The position numbers and the translations under genes are program-made. Below the pieces are notes generated by a model that was given only the letters and a program-made list of their open reading frames with translations, had not been told where the DNA came from and ran no database searches. A stretch of DNA of 64,000 nt from Massilia frigida. Lineage in GTDB: Bacteria > Pseudomonadota > Gammaproteobacteria > Burkholderiales > Burkholderiaceae_D. The stretch spans positions 1-64,000 of the forward strand of contig NZ_WHJG01000008.1 of the NCBI RefSeq assembly GCF_011682175.1, in the 5' to 3' direction. This document shows positions 33,322-52,946 of this stretch, in pieces (the stretch's first letter is position 1; each line of letters begins with the position of its first letter).

Positions 33322-34062
33322 TCAAACCGCACCGTCGATCACCACGGTCGCCCCGCTCATATAGCTGTTCTTATCGGAGACAAAGAACGCCGCCGCCTCC
33401 GCCACCTCGTCCACCGTCCCCAGGCGGCCCAGCGCGCAATGGCGCAGGTACTCGCTCATTTTCGCCGCCGGCACATTGCCGCTGACGCCTTCATCGAGCA
33501 CGCCCGGCGCCAGGCAGTTGACCGTGATGCCGTAGCGGCCCACTTCCTTTGCCAGCGCCTCCGTCATGCCCTTGAGCGCCGCCTTGGCCGCGCTGTAGTG
33601 CACCGGCGCCTGCATCATCTTCACGCCCGCCAGCGAACTGATATTCAAAATGCGCCCGCGCTTCTGATGGATCATCCCGCGCAGCACCGCCTGGGTGGTC
33701 AGGAAGGCGCCCTTGACGTTGGTGTTCATCATCCGGTCCCAATCCTCTTCCTCCATCAGCGCGAGCGGCACCACCTGGCCGATGCCGGCGTTGTTGATCA
33801 GGATATCGATCGCCCCCGCATCCTGCTCGATGGTGCGCACCATCGCTTGCAGGCCCGCCTTGTCCAGCACCGACACCTGGAACGCCCACGCCTTCACGCC
33901 CAGCGCCTTCAGGGCCGCCAGCACGGCCTCCGCCTCCGCCACCGAGCGGGTATAGTTGAATGCGACATTGGCGCCTTCGCGCGCCAGTGCCATGCACAGG
34001 GCGCGACCCAGGCCGCGCGAGCCGCCGGTGACCAATGCGGTCCGTCCGTCCAGCATCCCCAT
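33322..34062 (-). CDS. FabG-like short-chain dehydrogenase/reductase
   Basis: A 246-residue SDR with the NAD(P) motif TGGSRGLG, the NNAG motif, catalytic Ser in NISSLAG, and YSAAK. It most resembles 3-oxoacyl-ACP reductases. Its start overlaps the stop of the upstream radical SAM gene (TAATG), so the two are translationally coupled. It is similar in general layout to the SDR at 46352, including the HYxAAKA and LAKEVGRYGI segments, suggesting a recent common ancestor and related substrates. Confidence 0.88.
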   Translation of the reverse strand: MGMLDGRTALVTGGSRGLGRALCMALAREGANVAFNYTRSVAEAEAVLAALKALGVKAWAFQVSVLDKAGLQAMVRTIEQDAGAIDILINNAGIGQVVPLALMEEEDWDRMMNTNVKGAFLTTQAVLRGMIHQKRGRILNISSLAGVKMMQAPVHYSAAKAALKGMTEALAKEVGRYGITVNCLAPGVLDEGVSGNVPAAKMSEYLRHCALGRLGTVDEVAEAAAFFVSDKNSYMSGATVVIDGAV

Positions 34063-35885
34063 TATTTGAGCACCACCGGCTTGCCGCCACCGAGGCCGAT
34101 CGAATGCGGCGCGCGCGCCGGCGTTTCATCAACCCCGATCCCGGTCAGCGCCTGGCGCGTGTCGGTGCGGTGGAACTGTACGATCTGCACCGGTGCATCC
34201 GTCGTCCATGGCTTCTTGCCCCATGCCGCCAGTTCGGTCTCCGGCCCCTTGGCCGCACCCCGGTGGAACATATTGAAGCCGCAGGCCGGCATGATGCGTC
34301 CGTCCACCTGCGGGTAATGGTGGCAGCACTTGCGCAGCCGTTCCAGGTCGAAGTCGTGGCGGTCCATGTAGTGGTGCAAAAAGATCGACTTGGCCTGCTG
34401 CTCGCCGAGGTGAATCGCTTCCTTGGCGCTGACAGGCCGGTTCGGGAACATCACATCGATGGTGCGGCGCAGCGCCGCCAGGATGTCGGCCGAGCGCTCG
34501 ATTTCATCCTGGCGCGCGAACACGTCGTGCACTACATCGCTCATCGCATCGTGAATCTCGGGCGACGCGCCCAGCGTGGCCGACGAACGCAGCAAGGTAC
34601 CGTGGGTGCGGAAGTCGACAAAACGCCCGAATGGAATATGGGTGCCGTCGTTCATGCGCAGCAGGTAGCTGAGCGACACGCACTGCGGGTGGGAGCAGGG
34701 CAGCGGCGCGAAATCACTCACTTTCAGCTTGCCGTTGGTCTGCTCCTCGATTGCCTTGATCACGCCGGGGATGGTCAGCCGGTCCATCGGATCATGCGCG
34801 AACTGCCCGCCGCCGGCGCCGGTAAACGCCACCGGCTGGAAGTTCAGCGACAGGAAGTGGTCTTCGGACAGGAACATCTCCACCACCTGGCCGATCTGGT
34901 GCTCGTTGACGCCACGCGCGGCGACGAAAATCAGCTGGGTTGGAATACTCAGGTCCTTGAGCATCTTGAGCGCGGCGCTCTTTTCGTCGCACAGGTCGCG
35001 TCCACGGATTTTTTCGTGCGTATCGGCCGTAAAACCGTCGAACTGCAGCGCGACGTAGGCGCCGCTGGCCTTGATTTTTTCGGCAAAGGCGCGGTCGCGC
35101 CCGAGGCGCAAGCCGTTGGTGATGATGACGATGCGGCCGATTTCCTCACGCGTGGCAATCGCAATCAGTTCCATCAGGCGCGGGTGGCTGGTAGGCTCGC
35201 CGCCCGACAGCGCAATCGACTCCACCTGGCCCTCGTTGCGCACCAGCGTGTCGATCATGCGCGTGAACGCCTCGTTCGACAGGTGATACGCATTGGTGTT
35301 GTTGACGATGCAAACCGGGCATTCGAGGTTGCAGTAGTCGGTGATTTCGATGATCGGCAGGCAGGTGTGCTGTTCATGGTCGCCGCAGGTGCTGCAATCG
35401 GTCGGACAGCCTTTCTCCACTTCGGTGGCGAACACCAGAGGTTCGGTACCGGCGCGCGCGTACGAGTACGCATCCACGTAGTAGACAGCGTCTTCCGACA
35501 CCAGCGCCTCGGACGGGCCGCACTTCTCGCAGTTCTTCACAAAATAGACTTTGCCGTCGCGGATCACCACATCGGCCGGCAGCAGCGCCAGGCACCCGGG
35601 ACAGGTCGACGTCGTATGCTTGAAATAGTGGTCGCCTTGTTTCGCCGGATCGACCTGGCCGCGCGCGAGAAAACCCGCTACCCACGCCTTGGCGTCATCG
35701 GACACGATCTGTTCGGAAGGCCCGCACTGGGTGCAGTGGATCAGGCGTACCACGCCATCGTCGCGCAGCACCACGCGCGCTTCGATCGGGGTCGCGCAGC
35801 CGCCGCAGACCGCCATCTCGTGCATGAAGAAGGTGTGCTCGCGATCCTTGCGCGCGGTGCTCGTGTCGCAGCTAGTACATTCCAT
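34062..35885 (-). CDS. Radical SAM enzyme of the Tes/MJ0619-like type with duplicated N-terminal zinc module
   Basis: A 607-residue enzyme. Two similar Cys4 modules open it (Cys27/30/51/54 and Cys95/98/119/122), then CPTDCSTCGDH (Cys160/164/167), the radical SAM CNLECPVC (Cys185/189/192), and near the C-terminus CCHHYPQVDGRIMPACGFN, which probably binds an auxiliary cluster. This order of motifs is that of the tetraether lipid synthase family (archaeal Tes, MJ0619 and bacterial homologues), enzymes that work on unactivated alkyl carbons. The second N-terminal module is an addition compared with the paralogue at 51495. It is the first gene of the minus-strand operon and divergent from the FabZ-like gene. 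Actual substrate unknown. Confidence 0.8.
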   Translation of the reverse strand: MECTSCDTSTARKDREHTFFMHEMAVCGGCATPIEARVVLRDDGVVRLIHCTQCGPSEQIVSDDAKAWVAGFLARGQVDPAKQGDHYFKHTTSTCPGCLALLPADVVIRDGKVYFVKNCEKCGPSEALVSEDAVYYVDAYSYARAGTEPLVFATEVEKGCPTDCSTCGDHEQHTCLPIIEITDYCNLECPVCIVNNTNAYHLSNEAFTRMIDTLVRNEGQVESIALSGGEPTSHPRLMELIAIATREEIGRIVIITNGLRLGRDRAFAEKIKASGAYVALQFDGFTADTHEKIRGRDLCDEKSAALKMLKDLSIPTQLIFVAARGVNEHQIGQVVEMFLSEDHFLSLNFQPVAFTGAGGGQFAHDPMDRLTIPGVIKAIEEQTNGKLKVSDFAPLPCSHPQCVSLSYLLRMNDGTHIPFGRFVDFRTHGTLLRSSATLGASPEIHDAMSDVVHDVFARQDEIERSADILAALRRTIDVMFPNRPVSAKEAIHLGEQQAKSIFLHHYMDRHDFDLERLRKCCHHYPQVDGRIMPACGFNMFHRGAAKGPETELAAWGKKPWTTDAPVQIVQFHRTDTRQALTGIGVDETPARAPHSIGLGGGKPVVLK

Positions 35886-35927
35886 TTGAACCTTTCAACG
35901 ATGATCTACTGGTGTTCGGCGTTAACT

Positions 35928-36012: not shown

Positions 36013-36480
36013 ATGCGATACATACTTCTCGATAAAATTACGGCGCTTCAGCCGCCGCAACTGGCTTCGGGAGTCAAATGCGTGTCGCTGTCGGACGATA
36101 TTTTTGCCGACCATTTCCCGGGCCATCCCATCATGCCGGGTGCGATGATCATCGAATCGATGGCGCAGCTGGGCGGGGTGCTGGTCGAGGCGAGCATGCG
36201 CGAACAAGGCCGCCACGACCTGCACGCGCTGCTGGTCACGGTGGACCGCGCCAAGTTCCGCCACCAGGTGCGCGCCGGCGACAAGATGGAACTCGAATGC
36301 CACGGCATCGTGGTGCACGAAGACGGCGGCCAGGTGCGCGCACTGGCGCGGGTGGACGGCAAACTGGTCGCCGAAGCCGAACTGGCTTTCGCCTTTGCGC
36401 GCGTCACCAATCCAAAACTGCTGGCGCGGCGCCGCGAGGTGCTCAATATCTGGCTTACCGGCTCGGCCGAAGAGCCATGA
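36013..36480 (+). CDS. FabZ-like 3-hydroxyacyl-ACP dehydratase
   Basis: A 155-residue hotdog-fold protein. The FabZ motif is clear: DHFPGHPIMPGAMIIESMAQ with His34 and Glu48 at the spacing of the catalytic pair in FabZ. It should dehydrate 3-hydroxyacyl-ACP. It opens the 15-gene plus-strand operon; the stop overlaps the next start (ATGA). Confidence 0.9.
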   Translation: MRYILLDKITALQPPQLASGVKCVSLSDDIFADHFPGHPIMPGAMIIESMAQLGGVLVEASMREQGRHDLHALLVTVDRAKFRHQVRAGDKMELECHGIVVHEDGGQVRALARVDGKLVAEAELAFAFARVTNPKLLARRREVLNIWLTGSAEEP

Positions 36481-37679
36481 CGCAGGTGCGGGTGTTCGTG
36501 CGTGGCGTTGGCGCCATCACGGCATTGGGCGTGAACTGGCCCGCCTCGCTCCAGGCACTGGCCGCCGGACGCAGCGCCGTCAAGCAGGTTGCCGGCTTCG
36601 ACGTGACCGGTTTTCCCTCCACGGCCGGTGCCGAAATCCACGGTTTTACCCACACGGGTGACCGCCGCCTGGCGCTGGCCAGGGTAGCCGCGCGTGAAGC
36701 GTGGCAGGCCGCCGGGCTGGATGTGGCTCCCGACCGTCTTGGCATCTTCCTTGGCGCCGAATCGGGGCGCGCACCATTCGCCACCTTGCATGAATTGACG
36801 CGCGGCGCCGGCGGCGGTGCGCGCTTCGACCATGCGCAATTCGGCGTCAAGGCCGCCGCCCTGGTGGCCGAATTCGACGCCTCCATCATCTCGCCCGCCG
36901 CCGTCACCTCGGCGCTCGCCCGCGAATACGGCGCACATGGCCCGGCCGTGACGATCTCGCTGGCCTGCGCCTCGGGCGCGAGCGCGATTGCCGAAGCGGC
37001 ACGCGCGATCCGCCTCGGCGTGTGCGACGTAGCCCTGTGCGGCGGCGTCGGCGCCGATGTCGATCCGATGATGCTGGCCGGCTTCGGCCGTGTCGGCGCC
37101 CTGAGCGCACGCGGCGTCTCGTGCCCGTTCGACGTGCGGCGCGACGGCTTTGTGGTCGGCGAAGGCGCCGCCATCGTGGTGCTGTCGCGCGAACGCGGCA
37201 ACGCCACGGTGGAACTGGCGGGCGAAGGCCGCAGCCTGGACGCCCATCACCTCACCGCCCCCGATCCCCAGGGCGACGGCGCCGCGCGCGCCATGCGCAC
37301 CGCGCTCGCCGCCGCTGGCACGGATGCTGTCGGCTACATCCAGGCGCACGGCACATCGACACCGCTCAACGATGCGGTGGAGGCGCTGGCGTTGCGGCGC
37401 GTGCTCGGGCGCAGCCTCGACGCCGCCCACGTCAGTTCGGTGAAAGGGGGGCTCGGCCACTGGATCGCCGGCGCCGGCGCGCTCGGCTTCCTGTGCGCGC
37501 ATGCCGCGCTGGAGCAGGGCATCATCCTGCCGACCGCGAACCTGACCCAGCCCGATCCCGCCTGCGCCCTCCCGCACGTGTTGGACCACGCACTGCACGC
37601 AAACGTCGACGCCGCCCTGGTCAACGCCTTTGCCTTTGGCGGTGCCAATTGCAGCCTGCTGGCGAGGCGCTGCGCGTGA
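36477..37679 (+). CDS. Beta-ketoacyl-ACP synthase, catalytically complete (pair 1)
   Basis: A 400-residue FabF-type condensing enzyme with a complete catalytic triad: Cys164 in LACASGA, His291 in QAHGTSTPLND and His328 in GGLGHWIAGAGA. It extends acyl chains with malonyl-ACP. Its stop overlaps the GTG start of the next, catalytically dead homologue, so the two are likely to be made together and to form a heterodimer, as type II PKS ketosynthase and chain-length factor do. Confidence 0.9.
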   Translation: MTQVRVFVRGVGAITALGVNWPASLQALAAGRSAVKQVAGFDVTGFPSTAGAEIHGFTHTGDRRLALARVAAREAWQAAGLDVAPDRLGIFLGAESGRAPFATLHELTRGAGGGARFDHAQFGVKAAALVAEFDASIISPAAVTSALAREYGAHGPAVTISLACASGASAIAEAARAIRLGVCDVALCGGVGADVDPMMLAGFGRVGALSARGVSCPFDVRRDGFVVGEGAAIVVLSRERGNATVELAGEGRSLDAHHLTAPDPQGDGAARAMRTALAAAGTDAVGYIQAHGTSTPLNDAVEALALRRVLGRSLDAAHVSSVKGGLGHWIAGAGALGFLCAHAALEQGIILPTANLTQPDPACALPHVLDHALHANVDAALVNAFAFGGANCSLLARRCA

Positions 37680-38692
37680 GACAGGTATATATATCCGGCG
37701 CGGCGGCCGTTAGCGCATTCGGCTTCGCCTGGCGCGGACTGGCCGGCCATGCCGGATTTGGCGCCAGCCGCCAGCTTGCGGCAAGCCATGGCGAGGTGAT
37801 GGCGTCCGAAGTCCCTCCAATCCCGGCCGATATCGACGTCGACGCGCGCGCCCGCAAGCTGATGGCGCATCCGGCGCGGCTGGCGGCCGTTGCCCTGCGC
37901 CTGGCATTGGCCGACGCACGCTGGACGGCTGCGCAGCGCGAACAAGCGGCCCTGTACCTGGGCGTTGGCGCATCCGGCTGCTCCATGAGTGAGTTGACGC
38001 GCATGCTGGCGGCCAGCATCGCCGAGCATGCATTTTCGCTGGAGCGTTTCGGCGGCGCCGGTCTGGCCGCCTGCAATCCCTTGTTCGCGTTCCAACTGAT
38101 GAACAACTTCACGCTGTGCCACGGCGCGATCCTGAACGGCACCGGTGGCCCCAACGGCGCCTTCTATTCGCGCGGAACCGGGACCGTGGCGGCACTGGCG
38201 GAAGCACACTGGCTGGTCCAATCCGGAGAATGCGGCACGGCGCTGGCCGGCGGCGCCGATTCGGCCCTGCATCCGGTCACCTGGACGCAGCTCGACGCCG
38301 CAGGCTATCCCGCGCGCGGCCTCGTTCCAGCGGAAGGCGCGGGCCTGCTCGCCTTGTCTGCCTGCGCCGACGGCGCGCTGGCGACGCTGGACGCCGTCAG
38401 CTTTCACAGCGCGCGCGCCTGGGAGCGCAATGCGGACTTGGTGCTGAACGAGGCGCGCGACGACACCTTCGTCGTGCTTGCGCCATGGGGCAGCGAGGCG
38501 CGCACCCGCCTTGGTAACCGCGCTGCGCTCGACGTCAGCCGGGCCCTCGGCGACGCGCTCGCGGCGGCGCCGGCGCTGGCCTGGTGCGTGGCGCTTGACC
38601 TGATAAGAACGGGCCGCTGCCGGCGTGCGGTCGTCTTCAGCAGCGGCATCGATGGCGGCCTTGGAATCGCACGGTTCGGGAGCGTGGCATGA
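37676..38692 (+). CDS. Ketosynthase homologue without active-site Cys (chain-length-factor-like, pair 1)
   Basis: A 338-residue thiolase-fold protein starting at GTG 37676. At the position of the active-site Cys it has LNGTGGPNGAF, with no Cys, and the two catalytic His motifs are not recognisable. It is shorter than a normal ketosynthase. By analogy with type II PKS and aryl-polyene systems it is probably the partner subunit of the enzyme encoded upstream. Overlaps the next start. Confidence 0.75.
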   Translation: MRQVYISGAAAVSAFGFAWRGLAGHAGFGASRQLAASHGEVMASEVPPIPADIDVDARARKLMAHPARLAAVALRLALADARWTAAQREQAALYLGVGASGCSMSELTRMLAASIAEHAFSLERFGGAGLAACNPLFAFQLMNNFTLCHGAILNGTGGPNGAFYSRGTGTVAALAEAHWLVQSGECGTALAGGADSALHPVTWTQLDAAGYPARGLVPAEGAGLLALSACADGALATLDAVSFHSARAWERNADLVLNEARDDTFVVLAPWGSEARTRLGNRAALDVSRALGDALAAAPALAWCVALDLIRTGRCRRAVVFSSGIDGGLGIARFGSVA

Positions 38693-39957
38693 CGCGCGCG
38701 GTCATCACGGGCGTGGGCGCCGTCAGCGCATTTGGCATCGGCGTGCCTGCGCTGTTCGACGGCTTGGCCGATGGCCGCAGCTACATCGCCCCGGTCCGTT
38801 CTTTCGACGCAGCCGCCTTCGATACGCGCGTGGCCTGCGAAGTCGCCAATGGCGACATCGGGCGTGGCTGGCTACGCGCGCATCTCGGCGACCTGGGCGA
38901 CGCGGAAACTGTGCTCGACGGGTACGAACGCGCAGGCGCATGGCGCGACCGCAAATGCATGTTTGCCTTGCTGGCCGCCGTCGAAGCGTGGCGCATGGCT
39001 GGTTGCGGGCAGGGCGACGACGAAGCATCGATGGTGATGGCGCTTGGCCTCGAACAGGCTTTCCTCGACGATTTCGGCCCCATGTTCAGCGGCCAGGCGA
39101 TCGATTGGTCGGTCGAAGGGCAGGCAGGCATTCGCTTCCGGTCCGACGTGGACCTTGGCGCGCGCCTGGTTGGCGACGTGCTTGGCCTGGTCGGGCAGAC
39201 CGTCGTCAACGCCTCGGCGTGCGCCGCCGGCGGCCTTGCCATCGCCCACGCGGCATCGCTGATCGAGCGCGGGGCCGCATCCATCGTCCTGTGCGGCGGC
39301 GCCGACTCGATGGTCAATCCGTTCGGGCTGGGAGGCATGTCGCGCCTCGGTGCGCCATCGCCGCGCAACGACAGCGATGCCTGCCGCCCGTTCGACCTGC
39401 GCCGCGATGGCCTGGTGATTGGCGAGGGCGCCGCCATGTTCGTCATCGAATCGGAGCAGCGGGCAGCCAGCCGTGGTGCGCGTGTGCTGGCTCGCGTGCT
39501 TGGCTATGGCAGCACCCAGGACGCCTACCGGGTCACCGCGCCGCGTCCGGACGGCGCGGCTGCGCAGCGGGCAATGGAGCTGGCGCTCCGGCGCGCGCAG
39601 CTGTCGTCCCAGGACGTTGGATATATCAATGCCCATGGCACTGGCACGCCGCTCAACGACGTTGCCGAAGCGCGCGCGATCGCCGCCGTGTTCGGCCCCG
39701 GCGCGGTTCCCGTCAGCTCGGTCAAGGGCGCCATCGGCCACCTGATGGCGGCATCGGGCGCGATTGAAGCGGCGGCCTGCCTGCTCGCTTTCGAGCGAAA
39801 TCTGCTGCCGGGGACGGCCAACCACCGTGACCTGGACCCGCAGTGCGAGGTGGACGTGATCCGTGCGCCGCGCGCGGCCGCTGTTGACGTGGTACTCAGT
39901 AATTCGTTCGGTTTTGGCGGCCAGAACGTGTCCTTGATCCTCGGGAGGCCCGCATGA
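38689..39957 (+). CDS. Beta-ketoacyl-ACP synthase, catalytically complete (pair 2)
   Basis: A 422-residue FabF-type condensing enzyme with Cys178 in NASACAAGG, His316 in NAHGTGTPLND and His351 in GAIGHLMAASG. It differs strongly from the first ketosynthase, so the two probably have different chain-length or primer preference. ATG overlaps the previous stop and its own stop overlaps the next start. Confidence 0.9.
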   Translation: MTRAVITGVGAVSAFGIGVPALFDGLADGRSYIAPVRSFDAAAFDTRVACEVANGDIGRGWLRAHLGDLGDAETVLDGYERAGAWRDRKCMFALLAAVEAWRMAGCGQGDDEASMVMALGLEQAFLDDFGPMFSGQAIDWSVEGQAGIRFRSDVDLGARLVGDVLGLVGQTVVNASACAAGGLAIAHAASLIERGAASIVLCGGADSMVNPFGLGGMSRLGAPSPRNDSDACRPFDLRRDGLVIGEGAAMFVIESEQRAASRGARVLARVLGYGSTQDAYRVTAPRPDGAAAQRAMELALRRAQLSSQDVGYINAHGTGTPLNDVAEARAIAAVFGPGAVPVSSVKGAIGHLMAASGAIEAAACLLAFERNLLPGTANHRDLDPQCEVDVIRAPRAAAVDVVLSNSFGFGGQNVSLILGRPA

Positions 39958-41099
39958 AGGCGGCGCTGACCGGCCGCGCATGGCGCACCCCGCTCGGTTC
40001 CGGCATTGACGAGGTGGTCGACCGCCTGCTGGCCGGCGAGTGCGCGGCGCAGCCCAACGCGCGCTTCGACGCGCGCAGCTACGCCTGCATGCTTGCCGCC
40101 ACCATTGCCGCGCCACCGGTACCCTCGCGCCATGCGCGCTTCCTGCGGCGTATGGGCTTGTACGCGGTCGAAGTGGCTGCCGAGGCGATGCGGGACGCCG
40201 GCGTGGCCGGCGGCGACCGGGTCGGGCTGTTCTTCGGTTATGGCGGGCTGCGCGCGCACTGGGACGACCTGATGCCCGCCTTTGAACACCAGCGCGCCGA
40301 TGGACATGGCGCATGGGAGCGGGGCCTGGCGCTGCTGCACCCGTTCTGGATCCTGCAGCACCTGTCGAATAACGCGCACGCCATCGCCGCGCAGGAATTG
40401 GGCGCGCGCGGCGAAGGTGCGACCTATGGCGGCGCCAATGCCGGCGCGCAGGCGCTGGCAGGAGCAATCCGCGCGCTGGCCGCTGGCGCCGTCGACGTGG
40501 CACTGGTGGTTGGCTACGACAGCCTGGTCGAGCCGGAAACACTGGTCGAATTGGCCGCACGCGGTTCCTCTGTATCGAATGCCCTGGCGGCGCCGTACGA
40601 CATGGCTGCACAGGGTTTTGTACCTGGCGAAGCTGCCGCGGCCCTGGTCTTGCAGGGCAGCGGCGCCGCGCGCGCATTCATCCAGGCGCTTGACGGCGCC
40701 GATGGCGAAAAGAGGGAGCCCCAGCCAGCGCTGCTCGCTCGTCTCGTCGGTGCGCTTGCGCGTCCCGGCGATGCGGTCGATGGCTGCGGCCTGGCACTGC
40801 CAAGCTTCGATGCGGCAGAGCGCCGCGTGGTGGCCGATATCACCGGCGTCGATGCGCCCCTGTGTTGTATCATGAGCGCCATGGGACAAATCGGCGCCGC
40901 CACTTCAGTTGTTCAAGCCATCGCGCTGGCCGAGCTGCTGCAACGCCAGTGCATGCCGCCGCTGGCCGGCCTGCGCGAGGCCGCGCCCGGACCACTGCGC
41001 CCGATCTTGCGGGCCGAGGCTACGACCCATCGTTCCGCCATCGGCCTGTCCGCCAGCGCGCCTGGCCTGGCCGGCATCGTCCGCGTGGAGCTGCCATGA
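39954..41099 (+). CDS. Ketosynthase homologue without catalytic residues (chain-length-factor-like, pair 2)
   Basis: A 381-residue thiolase-fold protein. The active-site region reads [12 protein letters not shown], without Cys, and the second His motif is replaced by [11 protein letters not shown]. It should not condense by itself and is likely the partner of the ketosynthase at 38689. Overlapping start and stop codons place it firmly in the operon. Confidence 0.75.
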
Positions 41100-41830
41100 A
41101 AACCGCACTCGTTACCGGCGGCTCGCGCGGCATCGGCGCGGCCATTGTGCTCGAACTGGCGCGCAAGGGCTTTACCGTCATCCTCAATTACCGCAGCGAC
41201 GATGCGGCGGCCGCTGGCGTCGCCGAACAGGTTGCGTTAATCGGCGGCGAATGCGTGCTCGCGCGCGCCGACGTTTCAAGCCCCGCACAGGTCGATGCCC
41301 TGTTTGCCGACATCGACAGCAAATTCGGCCAACTCGATGTCCTCGTCTGCAATGCCGGGGTGCTGCGCGATACGCTGCTCGGCGCCAGCGAGCCGGCCGA
41401 CTTCGACGATATCTTTTCGGTGAATATTTCGGGCGTCGTCAATTGCTGCCGCCAGGCCTCGCGCCGCATGGTGTCGCGCCGGTGCGGCGTGATCGTCAAC
41501 ATGTCGTCGGTGGCGGCCACGCGTCCCGGCCGGGGTCAGAGCAATTATGCCGCGTCCAAAGGCGCGGTCGAAGCGTTTACAAAGGCGCTCGCGGTCGAAC
41601 TGGCGCCGCGCGGCATTCGCGTCAACGCGGTGGCGCCGGGCGTGATCGACACCGATATGACGCGCGACATCCGCGCATTGGCGCCGGAAGAACTGAACAA
41701 GCGCATCCTGCTCAAACGTGTCGGCAGTGCGCGCGAAGTGGCCGCCGTGGTGGCCTTCCTGTGCAGCGACGACGCCAGCTACGTCACCGCGCAGGTGTGG
41801 AACGTCGATGGAGGATTCAAGGCGGAATGA
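41096..41830 (+). CDS. FabG-like 3-oxoacyl-ACP reductase
   Basis: A 244-residue SDR with [12 protein letters not shown], catalytic Ser in NMSSVAA and YAASK, and the C-terminal WNVDGG of FabG-like enzymes. This is the most typical ketoreductase of the locus and probably reduces the products of the two ketosynthases. Starts in the ATGA overlap with the previous gene. Confidence 0.92.
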
Positions 41831-42501
41831 ACGAACAGACTACCCTGGACTGGTTTCTCTCGCGGCGCAGTACGCGCGAATTCACCGACCGCCCGGTCGA
41901 GCGCGAAACGATCGAGCGCCTGCTGCTGGCCGCGACCAGTGCGCCATCGGCCAGCAACCGCCAGCCGTGGCAATTTGCGGTGGTGCGCTCGCGCAGCCTG
42001 CGCGCCAGCATCGCCGATGCGGTGCGCGAGCGCGCCGACGACATGAAGGCGGTGATCGCGCGCGGCCACCACGCCGAGGACTTCGGCAGCTACGGCGACT
42101 TTTTCCACGAACCGTTGATGAGCGCCGCCGTGATCATCATTCCGCAGTACCGCGAATTCCCCGACCTGATCGCCAACCTGCTCGCCTCGGGCGGCGCCGA
42201 CCCGTCCGCTTACCACACGGCTGGCGCCATGCAGGCCGAACTGTGCTCCACCAGCGCCGCCGTCATGAACCTGCTGCTGCAAGCGCACGCCAGCGGCCTT
42301 GGCGGATGCTGGATGGCGGGGCCGATGATCGCGCGCGACCGCATTTGTGCATTGCTCGGCATCGCCGCGCCCTGGCAGATGGTCGGCGCGATTGCGCTGG
42401 GCTACCCGGCCGGCCCCGTACCCGAACAAAAAACCCGCAAACCGCTGGGCCGCGTGGCCCGCTGGTTTGACGACGAACATACCGACGAGGACTCCCATTA
42501 A
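41827..42501 (+). CDS. Nitroreductase-family flavoprotein
   Basis: A 224-residue FMN-dependent oxidoreductase: [12 protein letters not shown] at the N-terminus, [12 protein letters not shown] for FMN binding, and [11 protein letters not shown] near the C-terminus. Members reduce or oxidise diverse small molecules. In this setting it may act as an enoyl reductase or introduce a double bond, but this is an inference. It overlaps the FabG gene by ATGA and ends just before the ACP start. Confidence 0.88.
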
Positions 42502-45330: not shown

Positions 45331-46355
45331 AAGGACCAGGCCTCGTCGCACGCACCAGCCGCGACCTGCGCTTCATGGGGGGCATCCTGCGCAAGCAGCC
45401 GTTCCAGGTGCTGGTGCAGGTCACCAACCGCTGCAATATGCGCTGCTCGTTCTGCGGCTTCTGGCCGAACGGCGTCGCCCCGCGCCTCGAACTGACGGTC
45501 GCCGATTACCAGCGCGTGGCGGCCGAACTGGCGCGGATCGGCACCTTCCTGGTGTCGGTCGAAGGCGGCGAGCCGCTGCTGCGGCCGGACATCATCGAGA
45601 TCGTGCGCGCTTTTGGCGAGCGCCATGCGCCGGTCCTGTATACCAATGGCTGGTTTGTCGACGACGCCAAGGCGGCGGGACTGTTCGCGGCCGGCGTGGC
45701 GCAGGTCGGCGTATCGATCGACTTTGCAGACGCGGCGCGCCACGACCAGAAACGAAGGCTGGATGGCGCTTTCGACCAAGCCTGGCGCGCCGTGGACACC
45801 CTGCTGGCGCATGCACCCCATGGCGGCAAGCAGGTGCATGTGATGACGATCCTGATGAAGGAAAACCAGGATGACGTTGAAAAGCTGCTGCAAATGAGCG
45901 CGGCGCGTGGCGTCGGCCACTGCGTCACATTGCTCTCGACCGACGGCTTCAGGCGCGGCAAGAGCGAGGAGGACCAGCTGCCGGACGCCTCGCTCAGCGC
46001 CAAAATGCTCGACCTGTGGCAGCGCTATCCGCACCTGCGCACCTTCCGCGACTACCTGGAACGCATGGATGCCTTCGTCGAACGCGGCCCCATGCCGGCC
46101 TGCCACGCCGGCGAGCAGTCTTTTAACATCGACCATCTCGGCAACGTATCGCCCTGCATCGAGCGCATCGATTCGGTGGTCGGCAACGTGCGCGACGAGC
46201 CGCTGGCGCAGATCGTCACCCGCATGCGGGGGCTCGATTCGGTAGCGCGCTGCCAGGATTGCTGGACCCTGTGCCGCGGCTTCACGCAGGCGCTGGGGCA
46301 GGGCTCGACCCTGCGCTCGCTAACAGACCTTTCCACGCGCATGCGCTCCCAATGA
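45318..46355 (+). CDS. Radical SAM enzyme with SPASM-like C-terminus
   Basis: A 345-residue enzyme with CNMRCSFC (Cys39/43/46) for the radical SAM cluster, VEGGEPLLRPD, and a C-terminal Cys-rich stretch (CHAGEQSFNIDHLGNVSPC and CQDCWTLCRG) typical of SPASM/twitch auxiliary clusters. It is unlike the two Tes-like enzymes of this locus. ATG 45318 is chosen because GGAGGGG is just upstream; ATG 45306 is an alternative. Substrate unknown. Confidence 0.85.
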   Translation: MAILKGPGLVARTSRDLRFMGGILRKQPFQVLVQVTNRCNMRCSFCGFWPNGVAPRLELTVADYQRVAAELARIGTFLVSVEGGEPLLRPDIIEIVRAFGERHAPVLYTNGWFVDDAKAAGLFAAGVAQVGVSIDFADAARHDQKRRLDGAFDQAWRAVDTLLAHAPHGGKQVHVMTILMKENQDDVEKLLQMSAARGVGHCVTLLSTDGFRRGKSEEDQLPDASLSAKMLDLWQRYPHLRTFRDYLERMDAFVERGPMPACHAGEQSFNIDHLGNVSPCIERIDSVVGNVRDEPLAQIVTRMRGLDSVARCQDCWTLCRGFTQALGQGSTLRSLTDLSTRMRSQ

Positions 46356-47143
46356 ACCATGAAACGGACCACCCTGTGATCGACTCCGATACGTCCGCGC
46401 CGCCCTTGCGGCTGGCGGGAAAACGCTGCCTCGTGACCGGCGGCTCGCGCAACCTTGGCCGCGCCATCTGCGTGGCCTTCGCCGCCGCCGGCGCGCGCGT
46501 GGCGTTCACCTATGTCAAGGACGACGAACAGGTCGAAGTCACGCGCGCCATGTTGCGCGAACTGGGTGTCGAACCGTTGGTGTTCAAGGGATCGGTCACC
46601 GATGCGGCGCATGCCAGGAGTACCGTCAATGCTATCGTCGCTGAATGGGAAGGGCTGGACATCCTCGTCAACAACGCCGGCGTGATGCAGGTGCTGCCGA
46701 TCGCCTTGCTGGAAGAGGATGACTGGGACCTGGTGCTCGATACCTGCCTCAAAGGTGCGTACATCTTCTCGCGCGCCGCGCTGCGGCCGATGCTGAGGGC
46801 AAAGAAGGGGCACATCCTCAATATCGGGTCGATTGCCGGCGAGCGGATCGTCGAGTCGCCCGTGCATTACGCGGCGGCCAAGGCCGGGCTGCAAGGCTTT
46901 ACCCGTGCGCTGGCCAAGGAAGTAGGGCGCTACGGGATCGCTGTCAATGACCTGTCGGCCGGCCTGCTTGAAGCGGGCATGGGCCAGCAGGCGCCCCAGT
47001 ACCGGCTGGACGACTACACCACGCACTGCCCGCTGGGGCGTACCGCCACGCTCGAAGAAACCGCCGCCTTTGTCACCTGGCTGGTGTCGGACGAGAACAG
47101 CTTCATGAGCGGCGCGCGCCTGACCTTCGATGGAGGATTGTGA
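46352..47143 (+). CDS. Short-chain dehydrogenase/reductase
   Basis: A 263-residue SDR. The cofactor motif is TGGSRNLG (Asn in place of the middle Gly), with NNAGV, Ser in NIGSIAG and YAAAK. The catalytic residues are present. The middle and end resemble the SDR at 33322 (SPVHYAAAK, LAKEVGRYGI, SFMSGA). It overlaps the upstream and downstream genes by ATGA-type junctions. Confidence 0.88.
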   Translation: MNHETDHPVIDSDTSAPPLRLAGKRCLVTGGSRNLGRAICVAFAAAGARVAFTYVKDDEQVEVTRAMLRELGVEPLVFKGSVTDAAHARSTVNAIVAEWEGLDILVNNAGVMQVLPIALLEEDDWDLVLDTCLKGAYIFSRAALRPMLRAKKGHILNIGSIAGERIVESPVHYAAAKAGLQGFTRALAKEVGRYGIAVNDLSAGLLEAGMGQQAPQYRLDDYTTHCPLGRTATLEETAAFVTWLVSDENSFMSGARLTFDGGL

Positions 47144-48441
47144 TGGACGCGCTGCTGCATCGGGGCTACGATGATTTCCGCGCCTTCGTCAATCCGCTCG
47201 TCTCGATGCGCGCGACATTGAGCAGCGAGCCTTACCTGCTCGAACGGGTGGAGCAGGGGCGCCTGATCGATGCCGACGGCAAGCACTACACCGACCTGCT
47301 GGCCGGTTGGGGTACGCAAGCCTTCGGGCATCGTCCGCCGGCCATCGAGGCGGCGTTGATGGCGTTCCTGAACGGCAGCGCGCCCTCGTTCTACCCGTCA
47401 GGTATCAGCCCGTATGCGGGATTGCTGGCCAGCCGCCTGCATCAGCAAACCGGATACGATGCGGCGTTTTTCGCCAGCGGCGGCACAGAGGCGGTGGAAG
47501 CGGCGCTCAAGCTGGTGCGCGGCGCCACCGGCAGGCCGCGCATCGCCTGCATCCAGGGCGCCTACCACGGCTGCACTTTCGGCAGCGTGGCGATGATGCA
47601 GGCGGGCCCGTACCGCGACATCTTCGGGCCACACCTGCCGATGATCGATGCGCTGCCGTTCGGCGACATGGACGCGCTGGAAAAAGCCCTGGCCGATCCG
47701 TCGCTGGCCGCCATCGTGCTCGAACCGATCCAGGTCGAAGCGGGCGTGCGCCTGCCCGATGCGGCTTGGCTGGCCCGCTTGTGCCACGGCACGGGCGAGC
47801 GCGGCGTGCTGCTGGTGGCCGACGAAATCCAGACCGGGCTTGGACGCACCGGCCGGTTTTTGTCGAGCGAGGACTGGCCGCGCCGGCCCGACGTGGTCAC
47901 GCTCGGCAAGGCGCTGGGCGGCGGCCTGATGCCCCTGTCGGTGATGCTCACGCGCCGTGCGATTTTCGACGGCGTGTACGGCAAGTTCGCGCTCGCCGAG
48001 GCGCACGCATCCACCTTCAGCGGCAATGCGCTGGCCTGCGTGGCGGGGCTGGCGGCGCTCGACCTGCTGGACGACGCGATGCTGGCCGAGGTGCGGCGCA
48101 AGGGTCGCCTGCTGCGCGACGCGCTCGACGAATGGGTGGCGCCGTCGCCATTGGTCAAGGCGATCCGTGGCGAAGGCCTGATGCTGGGCATCGAGCTCGA
48201 CGCCCCCGATCATCCGTGCTACCAGTTCGACTACCTTGGCGTGCCCGAACTGGCCTCGCAGCCGGCCATCGGCATGCTGCTGGTGCACCGGCTGTACAAG
48301 GCCGGCTACATTACGCAGATCTGCGGCCACGCGTGGCAGGTACTGCGCGTGCAGCCATCTTTTGCGATATCCGACGATGAGCTGCTGGCGTGCGTGCATG
48401 CGCTGCGCGACGCGCTCGACTTCCTGTGGGACCTTCAATGA
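47143..48441 (+). CDS. Class III aminotransferase 2
   Basis: A 432-residue PLP enzyme of class III with ASGGTEAVEAALKLVRGAT, GAYHGCTFG, DEIQTGLGRTG and the PLP Lys256 in LGKALGGG. It is only moderately like the first aminotransferase, so the two probably use different substrates or act at different ends of a molecule. The ATG at 47143 shares its A with the previous stop. Confidence 0.92.
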   Translation: MDALLHRGYDDFRAFVNPLVSMRATLSSEPYLLERVEQGRLIDADGKHYTDLLAGWGTQAFGHRPPAIEAALMAFLNGSAPSFYPSGISPYAGLLASRLHQQTGYDAAFFASGGTEAVEAALKLVRGATGRPRIACIQGAYHGCTFGSVAMMQAGPYRDIFGPHLPMIDALPFGDMDALEKALADPSLAAIVLEPIQVEAGVRLPDAAWLARLCHGTGERGVLLVADEIQTGLGRTGRFLSSEDWPRRPDVVTLGKALGGGLMPLSVMLTRRAIFDGVYGKFALAEAHASTFSGNALACVAGLAALDLLDDAMLAEVRRKGRLLRDALDEWVAPSPLVKAIRGEGLMLGIELDAPDHPCYQFDYLGVPELASQPAIGMLLVHRLYKAGYITQICGHAWQVLRVQPSFAISDDELLACVHALRDALDFLWDLQ

Positions 48442-49139
48442 AACGCGTACTTGTACTGGGCGGCAGCGGCGCCCTGGGTTCGGCCCTGCTGCGCGAACTA
48501 AAGCGCAGCGGCGCCGACGTGGTGTTTACTTACTGTCACGGCGCGCAGGCTGCCGCCGCCATTGGCGAGGAACTCGGTTTCCAGGCCTACGCCGCCGATT
48601 TCGTGCAGGCCGACGCGATTGAAGCGCTGTTCGATGCGCTCGCGCGCGACGCCCGCCTGCCCGACGTGGTGGTCCACTGCGCCGGCGTGGCGCCGATTGC
48701 GCTGGTCGGCGCCGTGACAGTGGCTGCCTGGGACGCGGTGCATGCCGTGCACGGGCGCGCCGCGCTGCTGTGCGCCCAGCAGATGGAACAGCGCGGCCTG
48801 CGTGGCGCCCTGGTGCTGGTGGCCGCCCTCGACGGCTTGCAGCCGGTGCCCGCGCCCGCGCATTACGCGGCCAGCCAGGCGGCCCTGTGGGGCCTGACCA
48901 TGGCGCTGGCCAAGGAACTCGGTCCCAAGGGCATCCTGGTCAATCTCGCGGTGGTGGGCGTGCTCGATGGCGGCATCGCGGCGGCGCTCGACCCCAAGCT
49001 GCGCGAATCGTACCGGCGCTACTCGGCGCTGGGCCGCACCGGCACCTGCATCGAGGCCGCGCGCGGCCTGCGCTGGCTCGCGCTCGAAAACACCTATCTG
49101 AACGGCGCCCAGTTTCCGCTCACGGGCGGGCTGGGATGA
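48438..49139 (+). CDS. SDR-fold protein lacking catalytic residues
   Basis: A 233-residue Rossmann protein with GGSGALG at the cofactor site. At the catalytic positions it reads VAALDGL where Ser is expected and HYAASQAALWG, so YxxxK is YxxxQ. It probably does not reduce like a normal SDR; a structural or binding role, or a different chemistry, is possible. It overlaps its neighbours by ATGA junctions, so it is an integral part of the operon. Confidence 0.75.
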   Translation: MKRVLVLGGSGALGSALLRELKRSGADVVFTYCHGAQAAAAIGEELGFQAYAADFVQADAIEALFDALARDARLPDVVVHCAGVAPIALVGAVTVAAWDAVHAVHGRAALLCAQQMEQRGLRGALVLVAALDGLQPVPAPAHYAASQAALWGLTMALAKELGPKGILVNLAVVGVLDGGIAAALDPKLRESYRRYSALGRTGTCIEAARGLRWLALENTYLNGAQFPLTGGLG

Positions 49140-49672
49140 ACCGTGCCGGCGGCGTCTTCTTGCTGCTGTTGCTGGCGACCCTGGCGGTGCAGAAGACGCA
49201 GGACGGCCTCGCGCCCGAACTGCTGTGGATGTGCCACGTCACCAGCGCGATGCTGGCGCTCGGCCTGGTCGCCAATGTCGCGCCGCTGATCGTCACCGGT
49301 TTCCTGTGCCAGGCGGCCATCGCCTTGCCGGCCTACGTGCTGCATGTGGCGACCAGCGGCCACACATCGGTCGCCTCGTTCATGCTGCATGTGTGCGCGC
49401 CGGCGCTCGGTGCGATGGCGTGGTGGGGCAAGCGCGTGCCGGCCGCGATTCCATGGGTCGCGCTGGCGACTTACCAGTTGCTGATCGCGTTCAGCCAGGC
49501 ATTCACGCCCGAGAGCCTGAATGTCAATCTCGCTTTCCGCCCGTGGGACCCGTTGGTAACGTTCATCCCGTGGGGCTGGCCGGTGCGGGCGCTGAACCTG
49601 GCGCTGATGCTCGCGCAACTGGTCGCGGCGCGCTGGCTGTGGAATCGCTACCTGGCGAAAACGGCTAGCTGA
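49136..49672 (+). CDS. Small integral membrane protein
   Basis: A 178-residue protein with about five transmembrane helices, and several His within them (WMCHVTS, YVLHVATSGHTS, MLHVCAP). It also contains PWDPLVTFIPWGWPV. I do not recognise it. It is the last gene of the plus-strand operon; its end overlaps the convergent flippase-like gene by eight bases. Confidence 0.7.
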   Translation: MNRAGGVFLLLLLATLAVQKTQDGLAPELLWMCHVTSAMLALGLVANVAPLIVTGFLCQAAIALPAYVLHVATSGHTSVASFMLHVCAPALGAMAWWGKRVPAAIPWVALATYQLLIAFSQAFTPESLNVNLAFRPWDPLVTFIPWGWPVRALNLALMLAQLVAARWLWNRYLAKTAS

Positions 49673-50669
49673 ACACCTTGGGCAGCTTCCATGCGCCGGC
49701 ACGGTGGAATTCGCGCGCCAGCACCGCCGCGCCGGGCACGGCCACCAGATACCAGCACAGGACCCGCAAGGTCACGCTCACCGCCATGCCCTGGGGTGTC
49801 AAGGCCGGATCGAGCATGTAGCTGGTTGCCACTTCGGCCACGCCGATTGCGCCCGGTACCGGCGCCAGGTAGGCGACCATCAGGCTGGTCGAAAAGATCG
49901 TCAGCGCTTGCAGCCAGTTCAGACTGAAGCCGAAATGGGTGGCCAGCAGCCAGCCGATAGTCACGTAGGTGAGCAGGAAAACGACTGACGCAAGGTGGCA
50001 CACCAGATGCTGCACGTCGGTCGACTTGCCGATGGCGGAAATCGCGTGCGCGCTCTGGCCGATACCGAGCAGGATTTTCTGCCACAGGCTGCCGTCCTTC
50101 ATCGTGCTGGCGCGCCGTCCGGTCCAGCGCATCACCGGTCCGGGAAAGAACGCCATCAGTGCGAGCAGCAGGGCAATGCCCAGCAGCGGCGCGGTCAGCA
50201 GCGGCAAGCCCACCTGCAAGGCGGCCGGTAGCGCAATGGCGTGGCCGAAGGTCAGGGTGGCGCACGACACCAGGCAGATCCACAAGGTCATGTAAATGCT
50301 TTTGCTGACTGACGCCGCCAGCGCCTGCGGCATCGGCACGCCCTGGCGGGTAAGCATGAACATCATGGCCGGCGTATGCAGTTCGGCGCTGGGCGTGAGG
50401 CTGGTGACGAAGTAGCTGACGCACGTCAGCTTCAGGCCCTGCGCGAAACGCAGCGGATGGCCGAGCACTGCGAGCATGCTGCGCAGGCGTATCCAGTCCA
50501 GCATGTAAAACAGGCAGGTCAGCGCCGCGAGGCCCAGCCAGAGGGGCAGGGGAATGGTGAAGATCAGGGCCAGCACGCCGGCCAGGCTGGCGCCGCTGGC
50601 ATGCGAGAAGAAACGCGCGGTCAGGTAGATGGTCAGCGCGAACAGGAGGGTGAACAGGATTTTTTTCAA
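49665..50669 (-). CDS. Flippase-like (LPG synthase TM / UPF0104-type) membrane protein
   Basis: A 334-residue polytopic membrane protein with about eight helices. SYFVTSLTPSAELHTPAMMF and the late APVPGAIGVAEVATSYML segment match the pattern of the lysylphosphatidylglycerol synthase transmembrane / AglD-like family, thought to move or handle lipid-linked molecules. In this locus it may export or flip the lipid product. Last gene of the four-gene minus-strand operon; it starts in the ATGA overlap. Confidence 0.82.
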   Translation of the reverse strand: MKKILFTLLFALTIYLTARFFSHASGASLAGVLALIFTIPLPLWLGLAALTCLFYMLDWIRLRSMLAVLGHPLRFAQGLKLTCVSYFVTSLTPSAELHTPAMMFMLTRQGVPMPQALAASVSKSIYMTLWICLVSCATLTFGHAIALPAALQVGLPLLTAPLLGIALLLALMAFFPGPVMRWTGRRASTMKDGSLWQKILLGIGQSAHAISAIGKSTDVQHLVCHLASVVFLLTYVTIGWLLATHFGFSLNWLQALTIFSTSLMVAYLAPVPGAIGVAEVATSYMLDPALTPQGMAVSVTLRVLCWYLVAVPGAAVLAREFHRAGAWKLPKVFS

Positions 50670-51331
50670 GAGGGACGGGTCGCTTCAATGAACTGCATAT
50701 ATACCGCCGCCAGGTGGCCGGCGGCGGTGGGGATGATCTGTTCCGCCTGGGCCGCGAACTCGGTGCGCGTCAGCGAGCGGCGCAGGCCCACGCGCTTGAG
50801 CAGGCGGCCCCAGTGATGGTTGGTGCGGTCCGGCGTGAAGCGGCGCGTGAATGCGGCCAGGCCGGCGGCGGCGTCGCGCGCGCTGCCGTACTGGCTTGGG
50901 ACGTCGAACGGCAGCGCCGCCAGGTGTGGGCCGTTGGCCTCGACGTACCACTCGTAGCCGTCGGTCAGGTGCGCCACGCGGCTGGCGTGGACCGGGCAGG
51001 CCATGTCGATCACCAAATGCGAGGCCATCCCCAGCTGCACGAAGGCGCGCGCGTGCTGGCCGTTGCGCCATGCCGCCACGGCGCGGTCGAAGCAGGCCTG
51101 CGCCTTTGCCGGCGCGCTGGCTGTCACGAACGGGATAAAACCGCCACCGAGATAGCGCCCGGAGAAGTGGCTCAATGACCAGTGTTCCCAGATCTTTTGG
51201 CGGCGCGGCAGGTAGACCACGTCTTCACGGATCGCACCCAGCACCAGCGCATCGCGGAAGCGGTTAAATATCGGGTCGTCCAGCTTGCGCACGGCAAGGC
51301 TGATCACCAGTTGCAGACCGTTGTATCTCAT
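50666..51331 (-). CDS. Zinc-dependent phospholipase C / S1-P1-like protein
   Basis: A 221-residue protein with His/Asp positions of the zinc-dependent phospholipase C and S1/P1 nuclease fold: GAIREDVVY, HWSLSHF, and GMASHLVIDMACPVHAS, which has the HxxxD...PxH pattern. No obvious signal peptide. It may cleave a phospholipid head group. Start and stop overlap the neighbours by ATGA. Confidence 0.72.
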   Translation of the reverse strand: MRYNGLQLVISLAVRKLDDPIFNRFRDALVLGAIREDVVYLPRRQKIWEHWSLSHFSGRYLGGGFIPFVTASAPAKAQACFDRAVAAWRNGQHARAFVQLGMASHLVIDMACPVHASRVAHLTDGYEWYVEANGPHLAALPFDVPSQYGSARDAAAGLAAFTRRFTPDRTNHHWGRLLKRVGLRRSLTRTEFAAQAEQIIPTAAGHLAAVYMQFIEATRPS

Positions 51332-51498
51332 CGCTCCTCTGCCGCCGCGGCCTGGTAGCGTGCCAGCAGGGCAAGCAGTTCGCCGTAGTGGCGCTGGCCG
51401 CCATGATCGATGCAGAACTGCGCGGCGTGCGCGAGGAAGCGGGGAATGGCTTCCTGCGGCAGGTCGAGCGCGCGCAGGATGTCGTGTTCGTCGCTCAT
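51328..51498 (-). CDS. Small 56-residue protein between radical SAM and phospholipase genes
   Basis: A 56-residue soluble protein (begins MSDEHDILRALDLPQEAI, ends YQAAAAEER) with a single Cys (FCIDHGGQRHYGELLALL). It starts in an ATGA overlap with the radical SAM stop and ends in an ATGA overlap with the phospholipase start, so it is a true gene despite its size. It could be a small accessory subunit. It has no leader-core look of a RiPP precursor. Confidence 0.7.
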   Translation of the reverse strand: MSDEHDILRALDLPQEAIPRFLAHAAQFCIDHGGQRHYGELLALLARYQAAAAEER

Positions 51499-52946
51499 GG
51501 CACGGTCAGCCTGCCGCTGCCCAGGGTGGCGACCGGCGCGCCCGGAGCCACGGAAAAGCGGGTGTCGCGGTCGCGGTACAGGATGTTGTAGGCGCACGAG
51601 GGGACGTTGCGCCCGTCCGGTTCGCGGATGCCCACGCAGCACTGGCGAATGCGGTCGGTGTCGAAGGTTTCTTCGTCCATGTGCGAATGGACGTAGATCG
51701 CCTTGGAGCTTTGCTCGCCGATGCGCATGCGCTGTTCGGTCGACAGGCCGGGGCCGAACATGCGCGCCAGCAGACCTTTGAGCGTGGCCAGCACCAGGTC
51801 GCTGTCGGGGCAATCGATCTCGCCGGCCCACAGGCGCGTGATCACGTCTTGCAGCCGCAGTTCCACCTGCGGCGTCGGTTCCAGGTACAGTGTGCCGGTC
51901 AGCAGCGCGCGCAGGTCGGCGCGCTCCATGAAGCGGGTGAAGGGTAGCCAGCGCCCGTCGTCCAGGCGCAGCATATAGGTGATCAGGTAGCACATCGGAT
52001 GGCTCGACGGCGAGGGCACGAAGTCGCTGATGCGCAGCGCGCCATCGGTCTGCTGTTCAAGGTCGGCCAGCACGTCGTAGGTGGTGTAGCGCCCGCGCCG
52101 GTCGAAGCGCGATCCTCCCTGGCCGGTGAAGGTCATCGTGTGCAGTTCGACGCTGCGGATGAAGTCCTTTTCCAGCGCGAGCTTCACGAAGGCGCCCACT
52201 TCATGGTCGTTGCTGCCGCGCGCGAGCACCGGCAGCAGGGTGGTGTCGACCTTGTATTTTTCGAGCAGGGCCAGCACCCGCATCTTCGCCTGGTAGAAAT
52301 TCCCGCCCAACATGTCGATATTGGTCCCCGGCGTGAACGAGTCGAACGACAGCACGATGCGCGCGTCCAGCGCAGCCAGGCGTTCGAGCAGCCATTCATC
52401 CTTGAGAAAGCGCAGGCCGTGGGTCGAGATGGTGATGCGGTTGATGCCTTCGGCGTGGCACAGTTCCACCAGCCGTTCAAAGTCCGGGTGCTGGGTCGGT
52501 TCGCCACCGGTCAGGTTGATCATGCGGTTGCTCGGGTCGGCGCGCCGCATGTGCCCCAGGATGGCGCGCAACTGGTCCTGCGACATGTGAAACGCGCCTT
52601 CGTTGCGGTTATGCGTGTAGCAGATCGGGCAATCGAGGTTGCAGGCCGAGGTAATCGGCACGATCGGCAGCAGCACCTGTTGTTCGTGGCTGGTGCAGGG
52701 GCCGCAGTCGAACGGGCAGCCCTGGCTGGCCGGCGCCGCGCCAGCGGGCGGGGTGAGCACGGGCGGTTCGTCCATCATGGCGTCGTACCAGGCCGCGTTG
52801 GACGAGACGATGACTTCTTCGGAGCCGTGCTGCGGGCAGCGCTTGCGCATGACGATGCGCCCCTCGCTGCGCCAGATGGTGGCGTCGATGCTGCGTTTGC
52901 AGGTCGAACACAGGCTTGTCGTTCCTCGTACCAGTTCGTCGCTCAT
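51495..52946 (-). CDS. Radical SAM enzyme of the Tes/MJ0619-like type
   Basis: A 483-residue enzyme beginning with one zinc-type module (Cys13, Cys16, Cys37, His40), then CPFDCGPCTSHEQ (Cys77/81/84), the radical SAM CNLDCPIC (Cys102/106/109), TGGEPTQHPD, and a C-terminal CCVGIREPDGRNVPSCAYN for an auxiliary cluster. The order of motifs is that of the tetraether lipid synthase family. Unlike its paralogue at 34062 it has only one N-terminal module. ATG at 52946 is chosen. First gene of the operon with the small protein, the phospholipase and the flippase. Confidence 0.82.
   Translation of the reverse strand: MSDELVRGTTSLCSTCKRSIDATIWRSEGRIVMRKRCPQHGSEEVIVSSNAAWYDAMMDEPPVLTPPAGAAPASQGCPFDCGPCTSHEQQVLLPIVPITSACNLDCPICYTHNRNEGAFHMSQDQLRAILGHMRRADPSNRMINLTGGEPTQHPDFERLVELCHAEGINRITISTHGLRFLKDEWLLERLAALDARIVLSFDSFTPGTNIDMLGGNFYQAKMRVLALLEKYKVDTTLLPVLARGSNDHEVGAFVKLALEKDFIRSVELHTMTFTGQGGSRFDRRGRYTTYDVLADLEQQTDGALRISDFVPSPSSHPMCYLITYMLRLDDGRWLPFTRFMERADLRALLTGTLYLEPTPQVELRLQDVITRLWAGEIDCPDSDLVLATLKGLLARMFGPGLSTEQRMRIGEQSSKAIYVHSHMDEETFDTDRIRQCCVGIREPDGRNVPSCAYNILYRDRDTRFSVAPGAPVATLGSGRLTVP

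Follow-up and report, generated by a model that had tools for sequence, protein, structure and literature searches.

Homologues of archaeal Tes (PDB entries 7tol and 7tom; NCBIfam model NF045702) occur in many bacterial genomes, where the available text of PMC8941075 and PMC11868695 reports them without a proven function. Ladderane-type clusters of type II fatty acid synthesis (FASII) genes, as presented in the main text of PMC2649909, bring together ketosynthase (KS) paralogues, FabZ, FabG and an acyl carrier protein (ACP) with radical SAM genes. The locus described here occupies positions 33,322–52,946 of a 64,000-nucleotide window, the start of contig NZ_WHJG01000008.1 (C244) in the 7.79-Mb genome of Massilia frigida (G000). 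It differs from the archaeal systems in its bacterial host and in carrying two Tes-like paralogues, Tes1 and Tes2, inside a cluster of KS and aminotransferase genes. On the evidence below the cluster probably makes a dedicated aminated lipid, and we tentatively favour, at somewhat short of even chances, the fuller reading of a dispensable, cross-phylum aminolipid pathway with Tes-type C–C bond formation.

The block is filled exactly by 21 genes in three operons, to which families were assigned with Pfam and NCBIfam models on the window proteins. The left operon, on the minus strand, consists of Tes1 (g02, 34,062–35,885) followed by a FabG-like gene (g01, 33,322–34,062); the central operon comprises 15 genes on the plus strand, with 4-bp overlaps at 11 of the 14 junctions; and the right operon, again on the minus strand, runs from Tes2 (g21, 51,495–52,946) through a small gene and a phospholipase C-like gene to a flippase-like gene. 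A preliminary description of this DNA, which spoke of about 20 genes in three tightly overlapping operons, is borne out in the gene count, the operons and the stated families, although its gene list omitted the last plus-strand gene, g17 (49,136–49,672). It had also counted three Tes-like radical SAM enzymes, and this needs correction, as only Tes1 and Tes2 are Tes-like and the third, g13 (45,318–46,355, plus strand; NCBIfam, and Pfam on a longer frame), is a radical SAM/SPASM protein.

Tes1 and Tes2 are similar to archaeal Tes over nearly their full lengths (phmmer against 7tol, E = 1.4e-64 and 2.4e-62, respectively) and share its zinc ribbon and radical SAM core. Twelve cysteines align without exception across the 12 cluster Tes1 rows and the 14 Tes2 rows, and the same 12 are found in L057, a planctomycete Tes that falls in the Tes1 set of 13; in four archaeal Tes-like rows, gathered through PF23545 and not by their score to the Tes model, 46 of 48 cysteine cells agree with the cluster set. 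In a quick tree with Shimodaira–Hasegawa-like approximate likelihood ratio (SH-aLRT) support only and no bootstrap, in which no single branch separates the archaeal outgroup from the rest and very long branches lead to two rows that fall outside the named groups, Tes2 forms one group (15 rows, support 100), Tes1 is its sister (94), the two are held together at 99, and a third Massilia homologue comes next (96). By this sequence comparison Tes1 and Tes2 are two old paralogue clades. The third homologue is a Tes/TrsS-like protein of the same genome encoded outside the cluster (L120, 8,310–9,773, contig C191), which differs at three of the 12 shared cysteine positions, at one of which a cysteine sits at the next position. 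Tes1 carries, in addition to its HMPTM/Tes zinc ribbon, a second, degenerate ribbon near the N terminus (23.2 bits, below the cut-off), and an extra ribbon resembling it is present in the genomes of loci L036, L040 and L051. Coupling of alkyl chains by Tes1 and Tes2 through C–C bonds is plausible from these features, with the chances about even.

The central operon opens with a FabZ-like dehydratase of the FabA/FabZ type (g03, 36,013–36,480; Pfam and NCBIfam), followed by the ketosynthases KS1 (g04, 36,477–37,679) and KS2 (g06, 38,689–39,957), each with a KS-like partner directly downstream (g05, 37,676–38,692, by Pfam on a longer frame; g07, 39,954–41,099, by Pfam). The family models and catalytic residues agree with the preliminary description of two complete ketosynthases, each with a dead partner: Cys-His-Lys-His is intact in KS1 and KS2, and the Cys is absent from both partners. 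Of the KS orthologues, 11 span the whole catalytic tetrad, one of these belonging to another Massilia, and all 11 retain its residues; the Cys is absent from nine of nine partner proteins outside the genus. Massilia has two KS/partner pairs, and loci outside Massilia have at most one pair within the fetched stretch. Downstream lie a FabG-like ketoreductase (g08, 41,096–41,830; Pfam, SDR motif and tree), a nitroreductase-family flavoprotein (g09, 41,827–42,501; NCBIfam, and Pfam on a longer frame) and an ACP of 137 residues (g10, 42,502–42,915; Pfam and NCBIfam). These families support the earlier proposal of a dedicated type II acyl-assembly set accompanied by aminotransferases and by radical SAM enzymes of the Tes type. 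They also invite comparison with a ladderane or anaerobic polyunsaturated fatty acid (PUFA) type of FASII cluster such as that of Kuenenia or Desulfotalea, with which multiple KS-like paralogues and radical SAM enzymes are held in common (main text of PMC2649909). We regard that origin as very unlikely, given that the locus has Tes-like, aminotransferase and nitroreductase-family genes and no phytoene-desaturase-like match among its Pfam matches, and that the main text of PMC2649909 uses neither the word "aminotransferase" nor "nitroreductase"; with this difference in gene set, the ladderane pathway was rejected.

The two class III aminotransferases, AT1 (g12, 43,963–45,330; Pfam on a longer frame) and AT2 (g15, 47,140–48,441; Pfam), were both confirmed by NCBIfam and by a tree in which AT1 (16 rows, support 83) and AT2 (11 rows, support 96) form clades next to the PigE of this genome, with an unsettled branching order among the three. 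The aminotransferase PigE of prodigiosin biosynthesis is the best match of both, and 4ppm is presumably its structure. AT1 and AT2 align only to the C-terminal part of PigE and miss the PigE model NF053554, at 427.9 and 297.3 bits against a cut-off of 850, whereas a true PigE is encoded elsewhere in the genome (L158, contig C178). As the latter scores 1421 bits to the same model, prodigiosin biosynthesis is probably encoded in the genome too. The grouping with PigE would suit a secreted secondary metabolite, such as a pigment, a pyrrole or a polyamine antibiotic, in place of a membrane lipid, and so would the ABC-2 exporters that adjoin three relatives of the cluster (L042, L044 and L045). The separate true PigE speaks against such a product, and the flippase-like, phospholipase C-like and TMEM164-like proteins together with two Tes-like enzymes point to a lipid, so that we consider a secreted metabolite quite unlikely.

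In order to place the locus among other genomes, contigs were scanned using four aligned g13 proteins; 165 relatives were confirmed and 80 loci kept, and 23 of these (L036–L056, L058 and L059), with g13 identity of at least 46%, were compared gene by gene. The resulting counts follow best-hit labels, some of which conflict with the tree in the case of short-chain dehydrogenases/reductases (SDRs), and several loci end at contig ends. Besides g13 itself, present in all 23, AT1 was found in 21, Tes2 in 17, FabZ in 16, Tes1, KS2 and g17 in 15 each, the ACP in 14, AT2 and g11 in 13 each, KSb1 and g01 in 12 each, FabG2 and the flavoprotein in 11 each, g16 in 10, KSb2 in five and KS1 in four. Both Tes genes are present in 15 loci, and 11 have both aminotransferases. 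The genome-neighbourhood search that had been proposed as a check thus returned g13 in company with a PigE-like aminotransferase (21/23), a Tes-like gene (17/23) and a ketosynthase (15/23). The loci belong to six phyla (Pseudomonadota, Myxococcota, Planctomycetota, Rokuibacteriota, Acidobacteriota and Elusimicrobiota), many of the records being metagenome-assembled genomes (MAGs) and one, L041, bearing an implausible species name; a further true cluster, cut by a contig end, lies in a Wallbacteria MAG (L079). With 23 related loci plus this one in several phyla, the cluster is not private. No Tes gene lies within the stretch of L044, but its genome encodes two Tes-like proteins, apparently from a different contig. 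The other 57 loci served as a control; there was no ketosynthase among them and AT1 occurred once (L079), but the control was not empty, as Tes1 was matched over more than half of the query length in 25 and Tes2 in five, mostly in planctomycetes.

Close to home the distribution is patchy. The closest named relatives by g13 are Massilia aquatica, M. rubra, M. mucilaginosa and M. atriviolacea (94–95% identity), and at E = 1e-20 g13 was found in five of 16 other genomes of the genus, in none of 19 genomes from other genera of the family and in none of 24 genomes from other families of the order. Among 300 genomes drawn from the order, 40 gave matches at E = 1e-15, consisting of the genome itself, G184 as the sole strong match (60%) and 38 with weak similarity. 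Two genomes with 31% g13 relatives, G090 and G165, had none of the other cluster genes apart from isolated matches to SDRs or radical SAM proteins. A phage or plasmid origin was considered and rejected, since g13 had no relatives in viral contigs (where a query of one protein would detect only close relatives) or in plasmids (E = 1e-40). In L040, a split transketolase and a gene resembling fatty acid hydroxylase/alkylglycerol monooxygenase lie between AT1 and g13 (4,377–9,366).

A natural deletion of the cluster was found within the genus. In G009 the genes that flank the cluster are about 2 kb apart, and in the DNA between them the start of Tes2 (23 codons) is fused to the end of g01 (18 codons); the ArsR gene, the DCC gene and both flanks are kept, and a left-hand segment of about 1.2 kb has no match in the window. 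This junction is a deletion scar, and it follows that G009 descends from a bacterium with the cluster and that the cluster is dispensable. G006 retains the right flank, from the ArsR gene to a methyltransferase, and lacks the cluster. All 21 reading frames are intact in the window, and against M. aquatica the ratio of nonsynonymous to synonymous substitution rates (dN/dS) is 0.01–0.40 for 20 of the 21 genes (0.23 for g05 and 0.11 for g07), with Tes1 compared over 187 codons only and g01 excluded because it lies outside L036 and matched its paralogue. The block is under purifying selection and, given these ratios and the recurrence of the set in several phyla, it is not a chance assembly. The deletion in G009 and the presence of g13 in only a minority of same-genus genomes could be taken to mean a vestigial block without current function; the intact frames and the dN/dS values for the genes compared make this extremely unlikely. 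With a relative that lacks the cluster by natural deletion, and with named, deposited strains in the genus, the function of the Tes-like pair is directly testable.

The aminolipid pathway that we favour would proceed in four steps. FabZ, the heterodimers of ketosynthase and partner, FabG, the flavoprotein and the long ACP would assemble a dedicated acyl chain; the two PigE-like aminotransferases and the SDRs would then place amines on aldehyde or keto groups. The paralogous Tes-like enzymes, with their multiple clusters, may form C–C bonds at unactivated chain carbons, as their family and cysteines suggest. Finally, the protein with a TMEM164 fold would transacylate the product, which the phospholipase C-like and flippase-like proteins might trim and move. 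The pairing of Tes and of aminotransferase genes suggests two rounds of similar chemistry, such as one at each end of a single molecule. By the sequence comparisons, both of these are old pairs within the cluster, and the SDRs are only partly so. A two-ended (bola) product would accord with this pairing, although we hold it to be doubtful. A still more specific scheme, a bolaform aminolipid in which the two aminotransferases add amines to both ends of the dedicated type II chains, which the Tes-like pair joins as a heteromer or in sequence, is improbable; if it were true, the locus would encode a pathway to a membrane-spanning diamine lipid in several bacterial phyla, independent of ether lipids. 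If the pair joins chains at all, it would provide another bacterial route to cross-linked lipids, with implications for the lipid divide and for lipid biomarkers.

The partial doubling of the SDRs can be seen in the four SDR-family proteins of the block. The FabG-like g01, which has the S-Y-K motif, and g14 (46,352–47,143, plus strand; Pfam and motif) form one clade (support 98), and g01, g14 and g16 together (97) stand apart from g08 and from the 16 other SDRs of the genome. g16 (48,438–49,139, plus strand; Pfam) is an SDR-like protein with altered catalytic residues, the motif Ser being absent and the Lys replaced by Gln; both are lost in the window, in L036 and in L040. g14 proper is confined to Massilia, L040, L045 and L046.

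Several observations weigh against the favoured pathway. A thioester reductase for release of an aldehyde was not recognised among the Pfam matches. By best hit g14 is found in eight of the 23 loci, one of these proteins grouping with g16, so the SDR doubling is partial; the processing genes are likewise less conserved (g19 in eight loci, g20 in seven and g18 in six). The match of g17 to TMEM164 has an E-value of 0.19 and comes without sequence support. A search with planctomycete queries (E = 1e-8), confined to the window and to the stretches retrieved for the 23 loci, found no Ger/PlsA-like protein. Finally, the NCBIfam Tes model scores Tes1 at 265.7 and Tes2 at 241.5 bits against an equivalog cut-off of 450, while TrsS (NF045646) gives similar scores of 283.8 and 230.9 bits against a cut-off of 490, and in the tree the pair does not group with archaeal Tes and has its own clade (support 99). 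The proposal of an aminated, possibly cross-linked lipid therefore holds in part: the gene families, the recurrence across phyla, the kept Tes cysteines and an acyltransferase-like fold agree with it, and the missed Tes cut-off and the separate clade do not. The separate clade and the failure of both proteins to reach either the Tes or the TrsS cut-off would fit a Tes-like pair that is a branch of its own next to these two families and attaches a small head unit to an aminated lipid, or modifies its chain. Head-group chemistry would also fit the position of Tes1, which is often directly beside an SDR gene, and that of Tes2 in L045, L046 and L054. Such a role is less in keeping with the retention of all 12 cysteines of the archaeal Tes-like proteins, including the three at which the third Massilia homologue differs, and we judge it rather unlikely, if a serious alternative.

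Chain coupling in bacterial membrane lipids, our proposed Tes step, is also a feature of the Mss and Ger pathway to branched glycerol dialkyl glycerol tetraethers, as set out in the available text of PMC13274423, a likeness drawn from that description. The cluster differs in having no Ger/PlsA-like gene in the stretches searched and in adding aminotransferases and a dedicated KS set. A link between the Tes family and such lipids comes from 21 planctomycete control loci (L061, L063–L071, L074, L075, L081, L087, L097, L098, L100, L103–L105 and L110), in which a relative of the 439-residue DUF2229-like protein of L068 adjoins a Tes-like gene; 18 of the 21 have a separate SPASM radical SAM gene, and no DUF2229-like protein of this type is present in the window or in the 23 cluster loci. 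A BadF/BcrA-DUF2229 (Ger/PlsA-like) protein was seen in six of these loci: in L061, L068 and L071 it is whole or almost whole, and in L063, L069 and L110 partial; it is absent from several kilobases upstream in, for example, L064, L070 and L074, and elsewhere the stretch starts too late. The L068 protein consists of two activase stretches and DUF2229, the layout described for glycerol ester reductase in the available text of PMC13274423, and the Tes-like protein of the same locus, the only one of the 21 scored against the Tes model, exceeds its cut-off, at 498.7 bits. By their gene content these loci are a candidate bacterial operon for membrane-spanning lipids, and the proximity of a planctomycete Tes to a Ger-like protein lends indirect support to a role of the Tes family in bacterial membrane lipids. 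The planctomycete Tes of L057 (178–3,320) also lies above the cut-off, at 576.7 bits, and has an alkaline ceramidase-like gene beside it.

The hallmark of sphingolipid synthesis is an alpha-oxoamine synthase of the serine palmitoyltransferase type, and no class I/II aminotransferase match is present among the Pfam matches of the cluster; two-headed sphingolipids were considered as the product and retained as an analogy only. Going by the family matches, all recognised parts of the locus belong to known families. The preliminary description knew of no characterised system with this gene set, and none is described in the titles and abstracts of the open-access PMC papers among the matches listed, subscription papers, preprints and MIBiG lying outside their scope.

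Among the membrane and processing proteins, g17 is a small helical membrane protein whose predicted structure (predicted local distance difference test score, pLDDT, 93.4) has TMEM164 (9lw1) as its sole convincing PDB match (probability 1.00, TM-score 0.65, but E = 0.19). TMEM164 is an acyltransferase, as is a bacterial protein of the same superfamily, according to the available text of PMC12345273. The likeness of g17 to these TMEM164/ATGY enzymes is one of fold, whereas its sequence has no PDB match and gave no informative Pfam match in the nine orthologues scanned. In the g17 alignment Cys33 is nearly invariant and His85 invariant, residues that we compare with what we take to be the catalytic Cys and His of TMEM164. 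The product of g11 (42,920–43,966, plus strand) is a helical, His-rich membrane protein with invariant His and Asp residues in its alignment, for which a usable model (pLDDT 83) returned no fold match. The flippase-like g18 (49,665–50,669) matches LPG_synthase_TM in Pfam and TIGR00374 (54.9 bits, cut-off 43.2). The Zn-dependent phospholipase C-like g19 (50,666–51,331) had been named as such before, and the match does exceed the Pfam cut-off, though weakly (28.6 against 26.8 bits). The small g20 (51,328–51,498) adjoins g19 in those relatives that have it. In L042, L044 and L045, where the cluster is adjoined by pairs of ABC-2 transporter genes, the flippase-like gene was not detected, and the pairs perhaps substitute for it.

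Promoter-like and terminator-like sites numbered 1 and 12, compared with 1.9 and 13.1 in shuffled sequences, and were not in excess. Just outside the scarred block, an ArsR-type gene (53,040–53,393, minus strand; Pfam) persists at the empty site of G009 and is a possible regulator of the cluster. Upstream of the cluster, positions 24,971–28,633 of the window encode a fused CheB/CheR/PAS signalling protein.

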